Below, one piece after another: positions 2,516 to 45,946 of a DNA stretch of 51,566 nucleotides (position 1 is its first letter; each line of letters starts with the position of its first letter). The stretch lies in the IMG/VR virus record IMGVR_UViG_3300032560_000024, positions 1 through 51,566 of that record. The stretch is one strand, 5' to 3'. The notes beneath the pieces are model-generated. The model did no database searches. It saw only the letters and a program-made list of their open reading frames with translations, and was not told the origin of the DNA. This stretch comes from a virus. The position numbers were made by a program, and so were the translations under genes.

Positions 2516-3181
2516 ATGTCACTTGAATTAATGAAATTTGAAGATTTAGAATGTGAAACTCTACCAACAGGTAGATATTATATCACACCAGATGGTAAAA
2601 AATATCCATCAGTGACTACGGTATTAGGTAAAACATCCGATAAAGACCATCTAATAAAATGGAGACTTAAAATTGGAGATGCAGAAGCTGATAGAATCAC
2701 TAGGGCCGCTGCAATGCGAGGAAATGAATTACATAGTTTGGCCGAACGATTTGTCATGGGAGAAAAAATAGATCCTAGACGGGAAAATAGTTTGGCATTA
2801 GCTCTATTTGGCCAAATAAGACCTATTCTATTAAAAAATGTTAGAAATATTGTAGGGATAGAAGTTCCATTATATTCAGATACACTTCGAATAGCCGGAA
2901 GATCTGATTTAATTGCCAAATTTAAGGGCAAAAGATCGATTATAGACTATAAAACCAGCACCAACGAGAAAAAGAAAGAATGGATAGAAGATTATTTTAT
3001 CCAATCTACGATCTATGCTATCGCATTTAAAGAACTAACTGGGATATCCATTGATCAAGTTGTGATTATCATTGCTAACGAAAATGGCGATGGTCCATCT
3101 GTTTTTATTGAAAATGTATCCGATTGGGTTACAGTCGCACATGAAAGAGTTGACGCATATTATAGCTTGACATCTGAGTAA
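2516..3181 (+). CDS. PD-(D/E)XK exonuclease, Cas4/MGME1-like
   Basis: 221 residues. The core GRSDLIAKF followed by a basic turn and IIDYKTS fits motif II-III of the PD-(D/E)XK nuclease fold, with D and the D-x-K pair as metal and catalytic residues. Upstream YPSVTTVLG and RGNELHSLAERF (about residues 30-85) match the N-terminal region of MGME1 or Cas4-like phage exonucleases. It probably degrades single-stranded DNA ends during recombination or host DNA turnover. No iron-sulphur cysteines are visible. Confidence 0.8.
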   Translation: MSLELMKFEDLECETLPTGRYYITPDGKKYPSVTTVLGKTSDKDHLIKWRLKIGDAEADRITRAAAMRGNELHSLAERFVMGEKIDPRRENSLALALFGQIRPILLKNVRNIVGIEVPLYSDTLRIAGRSDLIAKFKGKRSIIDYKTSTNEKKKEWIEDYFIQSTIYAIAFKELTGISIDQVVIIIANENGDGPSVFIENVSDWVTVAHERVDAYYSLTSE

Positions 3182-3184
3182 AAT

Positions 3185-3218
3185 TGGAATATAACTCCTA
3201 AATAAGGAGACAATTCCA
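3185..3218 (+). promoter_or_regulatory. hairpin sequestering the ribosome-binding site
   Basis: TGGAAT (3185-3190) pairs with ATTCCA (3213-3218), and CTCCT (3195-3199) pairs with AGGAG (3205-3209) around loop AAATA. AGGAG is the Shine-Dalgarno of the gene starting at 3218, so the hairpin would hide both SD and start codon. Confidence 0.6.
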
Positions 3219-10836: not shown

Positions 10837-11802
10837 ATGGCACATGCACTTGAAATGGTAAATGGTGAAGCACAGATGGCTTGGGCTGGTGAATTGCCTT
10901 GGCACGGTCTGGGTACTAAGGTTCCGGCTGATTTGACTCCTGAACAGATTATGCAGGCTGCTGGCTTGGATTGGGAAGTTGCGAAGACTCCTCTTTTCAC
11001 CCATGTAAATGGTGAAACCATTCGAGTTAACGCAAAGTCGGCGTTGGTTCGCACTTCTGATAATCGTATTTTGGATGTTGTTGGTAAGGATTGGAATCCT
11101 GTTCAAAACAGCGAAGCGTTTAATTTCTTTAATGATTTTGTCGCTGCTGGTGATATGGAAATGAATACCGCAGGTTCCTTGAACGATGGTCGTAATGTAT
11201 GGGCACTTGCCAAGATCAATGAATCGTTTGAAATTCTTGGTCATGATCGAGTTGAAGGATTTCTTCTTTTTTCTAACCCGCATCAGTATGGTAAGTCGAT
11301 TGAAATCCGTTTTACTCCTATCCGGGTAGTCTGTGCTAATACTCTTGCAATGGCAATGGGTTCCTCGTTTACTTCTCGGTTCTCAGCTGGTCATCGTAGC
11401 CAGTTTAATGCTGATCTTGCAAAGGAAGCCCTCGGTATTTCGAAGGAGAAGCTTGCTAAGTATAAGGAAATGGCTGAATATCTGTCTAGCAAGCGTTTCA
11501 CCAATGAAACCATTGTTGAATACTTTAACCGTATTTTCCCAGCTGTCAGCAATGCTAAGGCTGAAGAGGGTGAACTGGCCAGCCGTCCAGCTCGTACCGT
11601 ATACGAAGCACTAGAGAGTCAGCCCGGTGCAGAATTTGGTCGTGGCACATGGTGGCAGGCATTTAATGCAGTGACTTATGCCACTGATCACATCCTTGGT
11701 CGTTCGACTGAAAGCCGTCTTCAATCCGCTTGGTTTGGTGCAAACCAGAATCGTAAGATCCAAGCTGCAAACATTGCTATGGAAATGGCAGAAGCTGCCT
11801 AA
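10837..11802 (+). CDS. DUF932 protein (phage/plasmid-like)
   Basis: 321 residues from ATG 10837, chosen for AAAAGGAAAATATATTATG ahead of it; an earlier in-frame start lies inside the promoter. AWAGELPWHGLGTKV (15-29), a helical middle and VRVVCANTLAMA-like RFTPIRVVCANTL (about 165) are the hallmark of DUF932 proteins found on plasmids and phages. Function unknown. Codon choice looks less AT-biased than its neighbours, as for a highly expressed gene. Followed by an intrinsic terminator. Confidence 0.88.
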   Translation: MAHALEMVNGEAQMAWAGELPWHGLGTKVPADLTPEQIMQAAGLDWEVAKTPLFTHVNGETIRVNAKSALVRTSDNRILDVVGKDWNPVQNSEAFNFFNDFVAAGDMEMNTAGSLNDGRNVWALAKINESFEILGHDRVEGFLLFSNPHQYGKSIEIRFTPIRVVCANTLAMAMGSSFTSRFSAGHRSQFNADLAKEALGISKEKLAKYKEMAEYLSSKRFTNETIVEYFNRIFPAVSNAKAEEGELASRPARTVYEALESQPGAEFGRGTWWQAFNAVTYATDHILGRSTESRLQSAWFGANQNRKIQAANIAMEMAEAA

Positions 11803-11810
11803 TTTAACTA

Positions 11811-11837
11811 GGGGGTGGATTTACCACCCCCCCTTCT
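11811..11837 (+). terminator. intrinsic terminator
   Basis: GGGGGTGG pairs with CCACCCCC around ATTTA, followed by a pyrimidine-rich CCTTCTT tail. It ends the DUF932 transcript. Confidence 0.6.
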
Positions 11838-11857
11838 TCCCTCATAGGAAAACCAAT

Positions 11858-12115
11858 ATGTTTATATATTTCGTATGTGCATTACTTATATTCTTTTTGA
11901 TTATTGGAATAATAGGGTTTGCGTACCAATCTGATCCCACACCTTTTTATTATAAAAATGGGGAACTTGACGAGGATATGCTTCTTAAATGCACTTTACT
12001 TCTCATTATAAGCTCTTTGGCATGGCCTATAATTATTATGGTCATTCCAGCTATAATTGTATTTACAATGGGAAAGAAAATTGCTAAACTCTTAAAGGAA
12101 AAAAAGAATGTGTGA
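11858..12115 (+). CDS. small membrane protein, two TM segments
   Basis: 85 residues from ATG 11858. The N-terminal helix (residues 1-24, FVCALLIFFLIIGIIGFAY) is a TM segment or uncleaved signal, a second TM lies around 47-72, and the tail is Lys-rich. Overlaps the next gene by eight bases. First of three small membrane proteins in a row. Confidence 0.7.
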   Translation: MFIYFVCALLIFFLIIGIIGFAYQSDPTPFYYKNGELDEDMLLKCTLLLIISSLAWPIIIMVIPAIIVFTMGKKIAKLLKEKKNV

Positions 12116-41462: not shown

Positions 41463-41784
41463 TGTATTCTCTTGTCTAAACGACTTTGGCAATAAAATAA
41501 AGACTTAATAACGTATCTCAACGTATATCTTAAATTATGCTATAGAAGATACAATAAAGGATCTTCTTCATCCATTCCCCATTACTAGAAATGCAAAATC
41601 GTTTGGTTTCGTAGGTGTTTATATCCTAAAATATAAACGCTTTCTTAGCCATTAAGACTTGAAGCTTGTTGTAATGTTTCACAGAGGAAGATCCTCTAAT
41701 TTATATGACTGGCTTCCCGTATCCTGCCGTCATAACCTTATCTCTTCAGATACCCACAGCCAGATCCCCTCTAGGGAGATTGAT
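41463..41784 (-). other. gene-free, hairpin-rich stretch
   Basis: No ORF. On the minus strand several small helices are seen: CTGGCT/AGCCAG enclosing a TATCT/AGATA hairpin (about 41709-41765), AGAGGA/TCCTCT (41683-41698) and GTTTATA/TATAAAC (41618-41639). It is part of the tRNA-Ala transcript, perhaps a structured RNA or decayed tRNAs. See findings. Confidence 0.4.
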
Positions 41785-41841
41785 GAACAGCTTGTAGAAG
41801 TCGAATCTACCTTAATGCACTAGCTCCCACGAGCAAGCTGA
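41785..41841 (-). tRNA. truncated tRNA-like element
   Basis: CAGCTTG pairs with CAAGCTG (41834-41840 and 41788-41794), and a perfect T arm GTAGA-TTCGACT-TCTAC is present. Only about 23 bases separate acceptor and T arm, so the D and anticodon arms are not both possible, and CCA is not encoded. Probably a tRNA remnant. Confidence 0.35.
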
Positions 41842-41854
41842 ACCTATAAAACTT

Positions 41855-41925
41855 TGGTGGAGCTACGGGAAATCGAATCCCGGTTAGTAGACTGCCAGCC
41901 TGCCACCCGACCCATCGGTAGCCCC
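41855..41925 (-). tRNA. tRNA-Ala (anticodon GGC), short D arm
   Basis: The acceptor GGGGCTA/TAGCTCC contains G3-U70, the alanine identity pair. T arm CGGGA-TTCGATT-TCCCG; CCA encoded (41857-41855 on the minus strand). Best anticodon loop CTGGCAG (GGC) with one stem mismatch. The D arm is about five bases short, so it is unusual. Confidence 0.7.
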
Positions 41926-42016
41926 ATAATTTATTATTTTAAACCGCCCCATCCCTCAGATGGTTGGTGACTTTTATTGTTAATCCAACTGCCACTCATA
42001 TAAAATTCCTAAAAAT

Positions 42017-42092
42017 TGGTGGAGATGAGGAGGCTCGAACTCCTGACCTTAAGCTTGCAAAGCTTCTGCTCTCCCAACTGAGCTACATCCCC
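42017..42092 (-). tRNA. tRNA-Ala (anticodon UGC)
   Basis: The acceptor GGGGATG/CATCTCC has G3-U70; D stem GCTC/GAGC, anticodon loop TTTGCAA (TGC), T arm AGGAG-TTCGAGC-CTCCT and CCA encoded. Canonical length of 76 bases. Preceded by a near-consensus promoter. Confidence 0.93.
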
Positions 42093-42307: not shown

Positions 42308-43711
42308 TCAATAAGAATAACGATCCGAAAGGACTGCCTTCTTCATGATACCTTCTGGTGTCATTCCAGACATATCTCCATCCAATATCGACTTCATAAT
42401 GGAAGGAGAAAATCCAGAGACAAGTGCAGTACCCTTTTCATCGAAACGAACAGGCACATTGTCAGAGGAATTCAAATTCCAAAAGATGACGTTAGGAGCT
42501 TCATATCCAGCTTCATGATACTTACGATGAATCATCTGGAATGCAGTATCATCATAATTCATACAGCAATTAAACTGCATATCGGAAAGGATCAGAAGAG
42601 CCTTAGGCATGTCTTCAGGTGGAACTCGATTAGAAACCGCTACTCGCAGAATTTCATTAAACGCCGAATGAAGATCAGTAGACATTTCCCAATGTGAACT
42701 TTCCATTTGGCGAAGCTTCTGAGAAAGAGTCCCCTTCAGATGTTCAAACTTAGGCTTGCTGCTAAAGGTCAAGAATAGATCCTTGAATGCTCCTGTATTC
42801 TTATCAGAAAGATACAAACCAAGAGATACTGCAACATCCAGACAAGAGATAGTAGAGCTACCTCCAACCTTAGAAGTCATAGACCCTGAAACATCAACCA
42901 ATGGTAGGGCCATTGCATCACCAACATAGTTTGGCAAAGCTTTCCATTGCTCATCAGCAAGAGAATTATCCCCATAACGAACGTTCTTAACAATGTCGTA
43001 AGGATAAACTGCTCCCGCATTTACCTTGACCTTAGGATCATCACCCTTCTTCAAGGCTTCCTTATAGGAAGTAAATGCATCAGGAGCATTCTTACCAAAT
43101 GCCTTAGAGTAACGAGACATTGCAAGTGAAGGAACGTGGCTAAAGTTGATGGTATCCCATTCCTTAGAACACATTTGAGTTTCTACAACCTTGGTAAGTT
43201 CTACAAGACGCTTACGATAGAACTTAGGACTCCATCCAAGATAGCTACGGAGTTCTACAGCAACCGCACCCTTACGAGGCATCCACTTTGCACATAGACC
43301 ATTTCCAGCCTCCAACGCCTTTGCAATCAAAGAAAATGCATATGCCTTAACTTCTACATCTTCAAAAATCAAAAGATCGTCCCAACGTCCAATTTCAGGG
43401 ACATTAACAAGAAGAGTAGTATCCAGAAGATCACTCTTGAAATTCTTTTCAATTAGCTTGAGAGCTTGACGGAACAGCTGGCGTTCACCTGCTCCACCAC
43501 GAACATCTCGTGCCCATTGGATGATACGAAGGGTAAGGTCACGATCTTCATGATATGCCTTAAGCAAATTTACCGAAATATCCTTACCACGGCTTGCACC
43601 GATCTTAAAAAATAGGTCAGTAGTATTGCTAAGAGTGGACTCCAACGCACTCATACCATTCTTGGTACGAGCTACTACAGGTGTATTCAAAACAGCATTC
43701 TTAAAAGACAT
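42308..43711 (-). CDS. VWA-domain protein, DUF2828/Ro60 (TROVE)-like
   Basis: 467 residues from ATG 43711 (GGAG upstream). N-terminal helical-repeat part begins MSFKNAVLNTPVVARTKNG and has RIIQWARDVRGGAGERQLF (about 65-83), as in TROVE/DUF2828 modules. The C-terminal VWA domain starts at about 270 with DVSGSMTS, the metal-site (MIDAS) motif, followed by ILSDMQF. Ro60-type proteins bind misfolded RNA and Y RNAs. It lies next to tRNA, tmRNA and a long untranslated leader. Codons suggest good expression. Confidence 0.82.
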   Translation of the reverse strand: MSFKNAVLNTPVVARTKNGMSALESTLSNTTDLFFKIGASRGKDISVNLLKAYHEDRDLTLRIIQWARDVRGGAGERQLFRQALKLIEKNFKSDLLDTTLLVNVPEIGRWDDLLIFEDVEVKAYAFSLIAKALEAGNGLCAKWMPRKGAVAVELRSYLGWSPKFYRKRLVELTKVVETQMCSKEWDTINFSHVPSLAMSRYSKAFGKNAPDAFTSYKEALKKGDDPKVKVNAGAVYPYDIVKNVRYGDNSLADEQWKALPNYVGDAMALPLVDVSGSMTSKVGGSSTISCLDVAVSLGLYLSDKNTGAFKDLFLTFSSKPKFEHLKGTLSQKLRQMESSHWEMSTDLHSAFNEILRVAVSNRVPPEDMPKALLILSDMQFNCCMNYDDTAFQMIHRKYHEAGYEAPNVIFWNLNSSDNVPVRFDEKGTALVSGFSPSIMKSILDGDMSGMTPEGIMKKAVLSDRYSY

Positions 43712-44324
43712 AATAATTCTCCATTTTCTACAGGTTAAGTGTGGACTGTTCATGTTCCACAAATTTTGCTATTATGAGAACATAATAGCATCGGTTTTGG
43801 TAAACTGATTAAATGCGGTAATTAACCTTTAATCAACGGGATCAACTTTTGCGTTTTTGATTACAAGTCAAATGCATAGTTGTTTGCTGAACTGATCCCA
43901 AATTTAATTTTTCAACAGGCTAGTTTTTGTTTTAAGGAGTTGAACCTTATCATTTTTGAATTGAAGTCAAAAACTTTACCGTTAAGTAAAATTGCTAAAC
44001 CTAGCCTTAAATTGATATATGCAGGATGCTATTTGATTTCGGATCTTACCTCTTCTTCTATTCGGAGAAGCCCTACTCCTAGTTTATGCTAGGCCACGAT
44101 ATACTCTTGAAAGAATATATCTTCCATAAAGAATCCAAATGGATTCGAGGTGCCCGAAGGCGCTAATGGTTTGCAGTAATCATCCTAATAATTACATTAA
44201 TGTAGAAGAAATAAGGAAACCCTCGAAAACTCTTCTACATTAAATTATACAGGCTCCGCTTTGGTCTTTTTTCACAGAAAGATTTTTTTGAGTTGCGGTA
44301 AGGAGCCTTAAACTCTATTTTCGT
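43712..44324 (-). ncRNA. long structured leader / candidate Y-RNA-like region
   Basis: About 600 bases without a gene, transcribed from the promoter at 44325. Hairpins on either strand's reading: AATGTAGAAG/CTTCTACATT (44200-44242), GGCTCC/GGAGCC (about 44251-44306), GAATCC/GGATTC (44131-44146), GATATA/TATATC (44097-44120), CCTAG/CTAGG (44078-44093), GGGATCA/TGATCCC (43838 and 43891 area). No tRNA could be closed. Its place ahead of a Ro60-like gene recalls bacterial Y RNAs; that is inference. Confidence 0.45.
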
Positions 44325-45222: not shown

Positions 45223-45299
45223 TGGTGCCTTCTGTGGGATTCTAACCCACGACCAAAAGTGTTAGAAACTTCCGCTCTAACCGACTGAGCTAAGAAGGC
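45223..45299 (-). tRNA. tRNA with CUA anticodon (amber suppressor)
   Basis: Complete cloverleaf: acceptor GCCTTCT/AGAAGGC, D stem GCTC/GAGC, anticodon stem GAAGT/ACTTT (last pair G-U) enclosing TTCTAAC, so the anticodon is CTA, which reads UAG. T stem GTGGG/CCCAC; discriminator A; CCA encoded. The T loop is TTAGAAT, with A instead of the near-invariant C56. The amino acid cannot be read from the sequence with certainty. Confidence 0.85.
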
Positions 45300-45307
45300 A
45301 TTAAGTT

Positions 45308-45499
45308 TGGTAGACCTGGAGGGAATCGAACCCCCATCTAACCGTTATCCTTAAATATCAAAACTCACAATTACAAATAAGCTTTGATATTTAAGGATTA
45401 AACCATATAAAGGCATCTGTAACTAAATGCCTTTATATGGTGCTAGGGAAATGTTCCCCCCGAATGAGCGGCCAGCTCTAACCGTTGAGCTACAGGTCC
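45308..45499 (-). tRNA. tRNA-Met (CAT) interrupted in the anticodon loop
   Basis: The 5' half: acceptor GGACCTG, D arm GCTC-AACGGTTA-GAGC, stem GGCCG and loop start CTCAT. The 3' half: AA, stem CGGTT, T arm GGGGG-TTCGATT-CCCTC, acceptor CAGGTCT, A, CCA. Between CTCAT and AA lie 117 extra bases (45347-45463). Without them the gene is a normal 75-base tRNA with anticodon CAT. Whether the insert is removed is unknown. Confidence 0.8.
45347..45463 (-). repeat. insert of two perfect hairpins in tRNA-Met
   Basis: 45347-45362 pairs with 45383-45398 (16 bp, no mismatch) and 45402-45416 pairs with 45427-45441 (15 bp, no mismatch); a third small stem GGGAA/TTCCC lies at the 5' side of the insert. At 117 bases it is smaller than known group I introns. 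Confidence 0.8.
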
Positions 45500-45607
45500 A
45501 AAAATTTATTGCTGGGTATTCTGTTGATAGGAACCCGGCGAACCCCGGAGTCTTAGGCTGTTAAGCGAAGATCACCATATGTGCAATTGTCATTGTCATG
45601 TAAATAC

Positions 45608-45636
45608 TATATATGACAATTTATCTCACATGTCAA
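45608..45636 (-). promoter_or_regulatory. sigma70-like promoter for tRNA-Met and suppressor tRNA
   Basis: On the minus strand: TTGACA, 17 bases, TATATA. Between it and the tRNA-Met gene (45500-45600) I see no gene. Confidence 0.8.
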
Positions 45637-45649
45637 GAAGTTTTTTTAG

Positions 45650-45910
45650 AAAGAAGGTTTTCTGTTTCGAGGATAACCTACAACCCAAGTAAATCAAGCC
45701 GCTAGGGCAAAATCCACAATGTCGTTATCATTTGCGACATTTAAAGTTTTAGCCACTCGGCCAGCGAATCAGTCTCGGTATCCCTATTCCACGAAAATCG
45801 ATTCCCAATGTTCACCCCCGTCAATTATACTGACAGTCAGTATAAATGGTGGAGGTGCGGGGATTCGAACCCCGGTCTTTTCGTTTTTAATGTCAACTGT
45901 CATCAACTAA
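45650..45910 (-). ncRNA. ssrA: tmRNA, circularly permuted two-piece form
   Basis: The acceptor piece comes first (about 45910 to 45847): T arm CGGGG-TTCGAAT-CCCCG, CACCTCC, A, CCA. Then a palindromic spacer (TATACTGA/TCAGTATA). The coding piece starts at 45819 with GGGGGTG, which pairs with CACCTCC including the alanine-specific G3-U70 pair. Helix 2 joins TTTTCGT of the coding piece to ACGAAAA of the acceptor piece. The resume region TTTAAATGTC-GCA precedes the tag at 45735-45694. The 3' end near 45650 is estimated. Confidence 0.9.
45694..45735 (-). CDS. tmRNA proteolysis tag ANDNDIVDFALAA
   Basis: The resume codon GCA starts a 13-codon reading frame, ANDNDIVDFALAA, then TGA. ANDN starts are usual in alphaproteobacterial tags and ALAA is the recognition end for ClpXP-type proteases. 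Confidence 0.88.
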   Translation of the reverse strand, partial: ANDNDIVDFALAA

Positions 45911-45917
45911 TATGGTA

Positions 45918-45946
45918 TTTATACATTATCGAGAATAATATGTCAA
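45918..45946 (-). promoter_or_regulatory. sigma70-like promoter of the tmRNA (also TATAAATA)
   Basis: On the minus strand: TTGACA, 17 bases, TATAAATA. The -10 is at the same time an exact late motif, so early and late expression are both possible. Confidence 0.8.

Follow-up and report, generated by a model that had tools for sequence, protein, structure and literature searches.

The window analyzed here, a 51,566-base IMG/VR virus record (IMGVR_UViG_3300032560_000024) from a fragmentary genome, carries a circularly permuted tmRNA gene on its minus strand, directly followed on the same strand by an orphan coding module of another allele type, M2. The explanation that best accommodates all the observations, and which we hold with high confidence, is that the gene encodes a phage permuted two-piece tmRNA, that M2 is the relic of a replaced allele, and that HNH genes reside in the spacers of related tmRNA genes. 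T4-type proteins were identified in the window, namely gp25 and gp6 baseplate domains, gp32, and gp59, and the stretch is evidently a fragment of an uncultivated T4-like phage.

A first-pass annotation of this DNA had placed a phage-encoded permuted tmRNA at 45650-45946 and given no strand; Rfam RF04321 and ARAGORN both confirmed the gene and assigned it to the minus strand. In the covariance search that the annotation had proposed as a check, RF04321 (tmRNA_permuted) matched at 45908-45694 (-) over the full model length with 79.3 bits (gathering score 47; E 1.2e-13), and alpha_tmRNA (RF01849) passed its cut-off of 50 at 45950-45650 with 53.9 bits. The beta_tmRNA model (RF01850) gave 61.8 bits, which was above the alpha_tmRNA score but under its own cut-off of 84. 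ARAGORN called a permuted tmRNA at 45603-45942. The features of the locus are as follows.

45918..45946, minus strand: promoter-like TTGACA-N17-TATAAA before the tmRNA gene (exact pattern match)
45847..45908, minus strand: acceptor piece with P2 strand, T arm, acceptor 3' strand, and CCA; 5' end approximate (RF04321 alignment, acceptor profile)
45820..45846, minus strand: intervening spacer, 27 nt, hairpin (sequence and fold)
45650..45819, minus strand: coding piece with GGGGGUG strand, UCGA motif, tag frame, and 3' pseudoknot-like region; 3' end approximate (RF04321, alpha_tmRNA, profile)
45694..45738, minus strand: tag frame VANDNDIVDFALAA-stop, with ANDN... from 45735 (ARAGORN)
45608..45636, minus strand: second promoter-like TTGACA-N17-TATATA (exact pattern match)
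45497..45602, minus strand: orphan coding module M2, with tag-like frame DNDNCTYGDLRLTA-stop and pseudoknot-like region (nhmmer, alpha_tmRNA)

The anatomy of the intact gene was in good agreement with the earlier description. ARAGORN reported the permuted type (tmRNA*), with the acceptor piece preceding the coding piece and the spacer between them, and the two piece ends that had been predicted, the CCA end at 45847 and the 5' G of the coding piece at 45819, proved exact. The acceptor stem GGGGGUG/CACCUCC forms 7 of 7 pairs and contains the expected G3-U70, the acceptor piece carries the T arm and CCA in the RF04321 alignment, and the spacer described as palindromic folds as a 27-nt hairpin continuing the acceptor stem. 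Profiles from which the window and its near relative had been excluded independently recovered both pieces: one of 14 other phage acceptor pieces found the acceptor piece (44.5 bits, E 6.3e-13), and one of 21 other phage coding modules found the coding piece (53.7 bits, E 5.5e-16). The best-scoring coding modules for the intact gene were those of two related viral contigs, L072 and L106, with the tag VASNDNDIVNYALAA, and the gene evidently belongs to a phage clade. Among the related tmRNAs, the T loop was GGCAGTA by eye, rather than the usual TTCGANT, in L042, L046, L052, L056, L060, L062, L064, and L115.

The tag of the intact gene was read as (V)ANDNDIVDFALAA-stop, ending in the protease signal LAA (ARAGORN). 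The length of 13 residues that had been proposed for this ANDN...ALAA tag holds when the frame is read from GCA, whereas ARAGORN reads 14 residues because of an extra GUC triplet at the resume site, which makes the first tag residue uncertain. The same triplet is present in 3 of the 21 other aligned phage modules (L064, L072, and L106). As for the tags of hosts, a first genome scan gave no match, and a second returned 57 loci, in none of which ARAGORN called a tmRNA.

The proposal that the gene has its own promoter is supported by the exact TTGACA-N17-TATAAA promoter-like sequence on its 5' side, within which TATAAATA also matches the T4 late-promoter consensus, quoted in the available text of one report as TATAAAT (PMC9004378). 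Across the window, the pattern TTGACA-N17-TATANW occurred at 8 exact sites and at 22 sites with at most one mismatch; at the latter stringency, shuffled sequences averaged 5.8 sites, with at most 14, and 0 of 100 shuffles reached 22. Four of the eight exact sites precede RNA genes, namely the intact tmRNA, M2 together with two tRNAs, the tRNA-Ala at 42017, and a stretch containing tRNA-like elements (site 44325).

The tmRNA gene is a member of a kind already known from phages and is not itself new; both the published phage two-piece tmRNAs and the orphan module just downstream had been overlooked in the first-pass annotation. According to the accessible part of one report, phage Melnitz has a two-piece tmRNA, and a survey of 18,146 phage genomes with ARAGORN yielded 53 two-piece tmRNAs, of which 50 had a marine or aquatic origin (PMC9004378). 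The available portions of two further sources count 79 bacteriophage tmRNA sequences and describe the making of RF04321 (PMC11915505), and list ten earlier phage ssrA genes (PMC4131195). As far as the Melnitz gene is described in the text at hand, the gene in the window resembles it in being a permuted tmRNA that is carried by a T4-like phage and is akin to those of alphaproteobacteria, but is followed by an orphan second coding module; moreover, the Melnitz gene has a predicted glutamine riboswitch, whereas no such family matched at the window gene (PMC9004378). With the permuted tmRNAs of RF04321 and RF01849, as presented in the part of the source available (PMC11915505), it shares the piece order, tRNA-like domain, G3-U70, spacer, and tag frame, both models scoring above cut-off, and it differs in that its spacer is a 27-nt hairpin; in relatives, the spacer holds an HNH ORF. 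A comparison of the window gene with isolate phage records returned 10 records, in which only 8-10% of the query was matched.

The orphan module was detected by the independent coding-module profile (nhmmer) at 45594-45497 (33.6 bits, E 9e-10; the runner-up in the window had 8.1 bits), and by alpha_tmRNA at 45640-45510, with the tRNA-like part skipped and a score of 33.1 bits that falls short of the cut-off of 50 (E 5.4e-6 for the window as a whole). Its homology is confined to the coding half, and a tRNA-like domain such as a tmRNA would have was not found for it. No GGGGGUG strand precedes M2, and the sole acceptor piece upstream of it in the window, as searched with the acceptor profile, is that of the intact gene. 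The pseudoknot pattern of M2 is present in 42 viral contigs, one of which (L074) is an ARAGORN tmRNA. The other 41 were all examined. In 35 of them the same strand carries an acceptor match at a distance of 136-702 nt upstream, and these include L006, a near relative of the window in which that acceptor is the intact gene's; four have less than 300 bases upstream, and in two (L322 and L336) no acceptor was found. A second orphan coding module (107 bits) occurs in L060, where an ORF lies between it and the ARAGORN tmRNA of that contig. In L055, L067, and L060, the 3' end of the tmRNA gene bears inserted genes; the insert of L067 holds an apparent HNH-type ORF on the opposite strand (by eye). 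Translations of genes of L067 and L005, with stops rendered as X, matched no Pfam family, probably because the frames were wrong.

We infer that M2 is what remains of a different, since replaced tmRNA allele, and that both M2 and the L060 orphan would be scars of one tmRNA having been replaced by another. That M2 is instead functional, as a short RNA from its own promoter, a trans-translation decoy or regulator, or a small translated peptide, seems improbable. M2 does begin just after the promoter-like TTGACA-N17-TATATA, is still recognized by the coding-module profile, and differs at one position from the near relative (by eye); however, its first tag codon is Asp where relatives have Ala, its tag ends in LTA rather than LAA, its 5' acceptor strand is missing, and the promoter may merely be that of the two tRNA genes further downstream. 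The window and its near relative, L006/L007, share 97.4-99.7% identity across four long blocks, which is too similar for conservation to count or for purifying selection on either module to be inferred, and the conservation of M2 as a sign of function was dropped for this reason. Less likely again is a tandem duplication of the intact gene minus its first half, which would account for the shared strand, the adjacency, and the similar promoter-like site; M2 aligns better to other alleles (L261, 75; L042, 71; L183, 66; L074, 66) than to the module of the intact gene (27), and this ordering favors allele replacement.

In the proposed working of the intact gene, its own promoter would give rise to a single transcript, which host tRNA-processing nucleases would cut on either side of the spacer hairpin. 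This would yield an acceptor piece ending in CCA and a coding piece starting with GGGGGUG, and pairing in the acceptor stem and helix P2 would keep the two pieces together. The tmRNA would be charged by host AlaRS via G3-U70 and delivered by host SmpB to stalled ribosomes; there, (A)(V)ANDNDIVDFALAA would be appended to the product, which would then be degraded by host proteases. No SmpB gene was found in the 51.6-kb fragment, so that the tmRNA gene would depend on a host partner, and ribosome rescue by this tmRNA with host SmpB, AlaRS, and ClpXP is the activity suggested by these features. Phages often acquire RNA genes, and the partner protein is absent from the fragment, but it is very unlikely that the entire tmRNA is a decaying host-captured gene unused by the phage, given the intact acceptor pairs, the open tag frame, the spacer hairpin, the strong promoter, and the commonness of relatives: 73 of 84 contigs picked by a separate downstream motif have, upstream and in the same orientation, a permuted tmRNA or coding module (in 68 of them called by ARAGORN).

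This motif, located at 41660 in the window, belongs to a conserved structured RNA (41490-41706, minus strand) that directly precedes an endolysin gene of the SleB type and stands 3.9 kb from the tmRNA. When only the 78 motif contigs that extend 300 bases or more upstream were counted, the same number, 73, had a permuted tmRNA or coding module there. A TAAATA late-promoter-like sequence lies 30-75 nt before the motif in 79 of 81 cases, and the ORF after it resembles a SleB-type wall hydrolase in all 28 distinct sequences printed (by eye); that of the window matched PF07486 (E 4.2e-18) and the endolysin family phrog_938. In an alignment of 20 sequences, thinned to less than 95% identity from 78 usable ones, both partners vary in 12 of 40 pairs, as against 8.0 in shuffles, and the covariation score was 0.287 as compared with 0.123 in shuffles and at most 0.067 in slid versions. 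A protein-coding explanation of the motif was rejected, as a frame that runs open in L005 is interrupted in the window (by eye), and the base pairs covary. No Rfam family reached its cut-off on the leader, no isolate phage record matched it, and no similar endolysin leader appeared in the titles and abstracts of the papers listed by a literature search. We consider this RNA a candidate cis-regulatory leader that may control endolysin production and lysis.

Several other tRNA-like elements were observed on the minus strand. A third tmRNA at 41821-41882 was considered and rejected: the region scored 23.9 bits with beta_tmRNA but only 7.6 bits with the acceptor profile, and the fold of 41700-41930 was no better than shuffles (z -0.13). 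The stretch at 41855-41925 is tRNA-like by eye, having a G3-U70 acceptor, a T arm, CCA, and a tiny anticodon arm with no proper loop. A tRNA-Met/Ile (CAU) at 45308-45499, found by ARAGORN with introns allowed and present also in L007, holds in its anticodon loop a 117-nt insert of strong hairpins (fold z -10), which is shorter than ordinary group I introns. Next to it, at 45223-45299, lies a tRNA with a CUA anticodon of the amber suppressor type, called tRNA-Pyl by ARAGORN; TAG serves as the stop in only 3 of the 59 long ORFs of the window. Two further stretches, 43835-43905 and 43931-43991, look tRNA-like by eye, their apparent anticodon loops being UGU and UCA and their outer arms odd; the second stretch matches the Rfam tRNA model. 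Near such odd tRNA-like stretches, 42308-43762 encodes a protein with DUF2828 and DUF7788 (PHROG 850, 'RNA-binding protein'), which we take to resemble the Ro60-type RNA-binding proteins. In other genomes, Ruegeria phage RpAliso (OR257569.1, L004) has at 2864-3207 a permuted tmRNA unannotated in its record, with the tag ANENFAPVEMAVAA, and several tRNA-like genes around it seem to hold inserts sharing a CTTCTA-type motif (by eye). In addition, L015, a contig with a relative of the AAA ATPase of the window, has at 11571-12045 a GOLLD RNA with an internal tRNA call.

Some spacers of related tmRNA genes were revealed to house protein genes. Among 89 permuted tmRNA calls, a set with many near copies, the shortest spacer measured 5 nt and the longest 155 nt. 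ARAGORN finds no tmRNA in L059, yet both halves are present there with a 156-aa ORF between them, which matched Pfam HNH PF01844 (5.8e-6). Nested HNH proteins matched phrog_655 'homing endonuclease' in all four tested, that of L059 included (2.8e-12 to 6.7e-15), and they are predicted homing endonucleases. Two scans for relatives of the L059 protein, the second being the best 80 of 470 relatives, gave 134 loci, of which 37 had a tmRNA half in the flanks (up to 1.5 kb) and 97 had none; L260, related over nearly the whole protein (55%), has no tmRNA half in its flanks. Four of the 37 were excluded, three (L305, L307, and L310) with both tmRNA halves downstream of the HNH match and one (L227) with the coding module on the opposite strand to it, and the remaining 33 were searched for an acceptor stem spanning the ORF.

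In all 27 loci with a script-readable 3' strand, which include many near copies, the acceptor stem re-pairs across the HNH ORF with a fully pairing 7-nt 5' strand. All 27 have G3-U70, though the search did not require it, and 10 different 3' strands are represented; when 3' strands were swapped between loci, a match was obtained in 48 of 243 combinations. The coding module was found in 25 of the 27, but not in L257 and L258. As for the other six of the 33, inspection by eye showed L262 and L293 to fit as well, L263 and L264 are apparent copies of L262 according to the listed figures, L188 is cut by the contig end, and in L312, when viewed, the ORF lies outside, both halves being downstream of the HNH match. 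By the listed identities, about 17 near-copy groups were counted. In 15 of 15 nested representatives, the two ends of the spacer pair with each other in a helix of 9-16 pairs, as compared with a mean of 6.0 pairs for swapped ends, 46 of 210 of which reach 7. RF04321 spans the insert above its cut-off in five of six nested loci tested (L259, L181, L279, L293, and L291), and in L262 it matches the coding side only (40.2 bits). The HNH genes occupy the loop of the spacer hairpin, and their ends often lie a few bases from the acceptor strand or reach into it; TATAAATA or CTAAATA stands 5' of the nested ORF in the spacers read by eye, except in L279 and L293. With ordinary settings, ARAGORN called a tmRNA in none of 16 nested loci. 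In isolate phages, 23 records matched the HNH protein, over at most 53% of the query, and the regions taken from four of these, cyanophages with partial HNH relatives, contained no tmRNA by Rfam (E up to 0.1) or ARAGORN. The spacer of the window is itself empty, with no HNH ORF.

Homing genes are usually found in introns, in inteins, or intergenically. Normal processing of the transcript would discard a nested HNH gene with the spacer, so that splicing would not be needed and the tmRNA need not suffer. In the accessible portion of one source, the spacer of one permuted tmRNA holds a tRNA-Ala gene and that of another a repetitive element, and LAGLIDADG endonuclease genes lie in group I introns of tmRNA genes (PMC11915505). 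The nested genes resemble the latter in being mobile endonuclease genes in a transcript part absent from the mature RNA; they differ from them, as described there, in being of the HNH type with neither intron nor splicing, removal of the spacer presumably occurring by tRNA-type processing. An endonuclease gene in a permuted tmRNA spacer was undescribed among the literature matches listed, as far as their available text goes, a set that left most subscription journals and preprints uncovered.

Taken together, these observations make it probable that the permuted tmRNA spacer is a splice-free home for mobile endonucleases, the window being an empty-site allele and M2 a scar of endonuclease-driven allele turnover. 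If so, this reading would offer a reason both for the variable spacer length of phage tmRNAs and for an orphan half beside an intact gene. Further nested cases may have been overlooked elsewhere, because ARAGORN with ordinary settings reported none of those examined here, and a gene split in two by design would constitute a further splice-free hiding place for homing genes.
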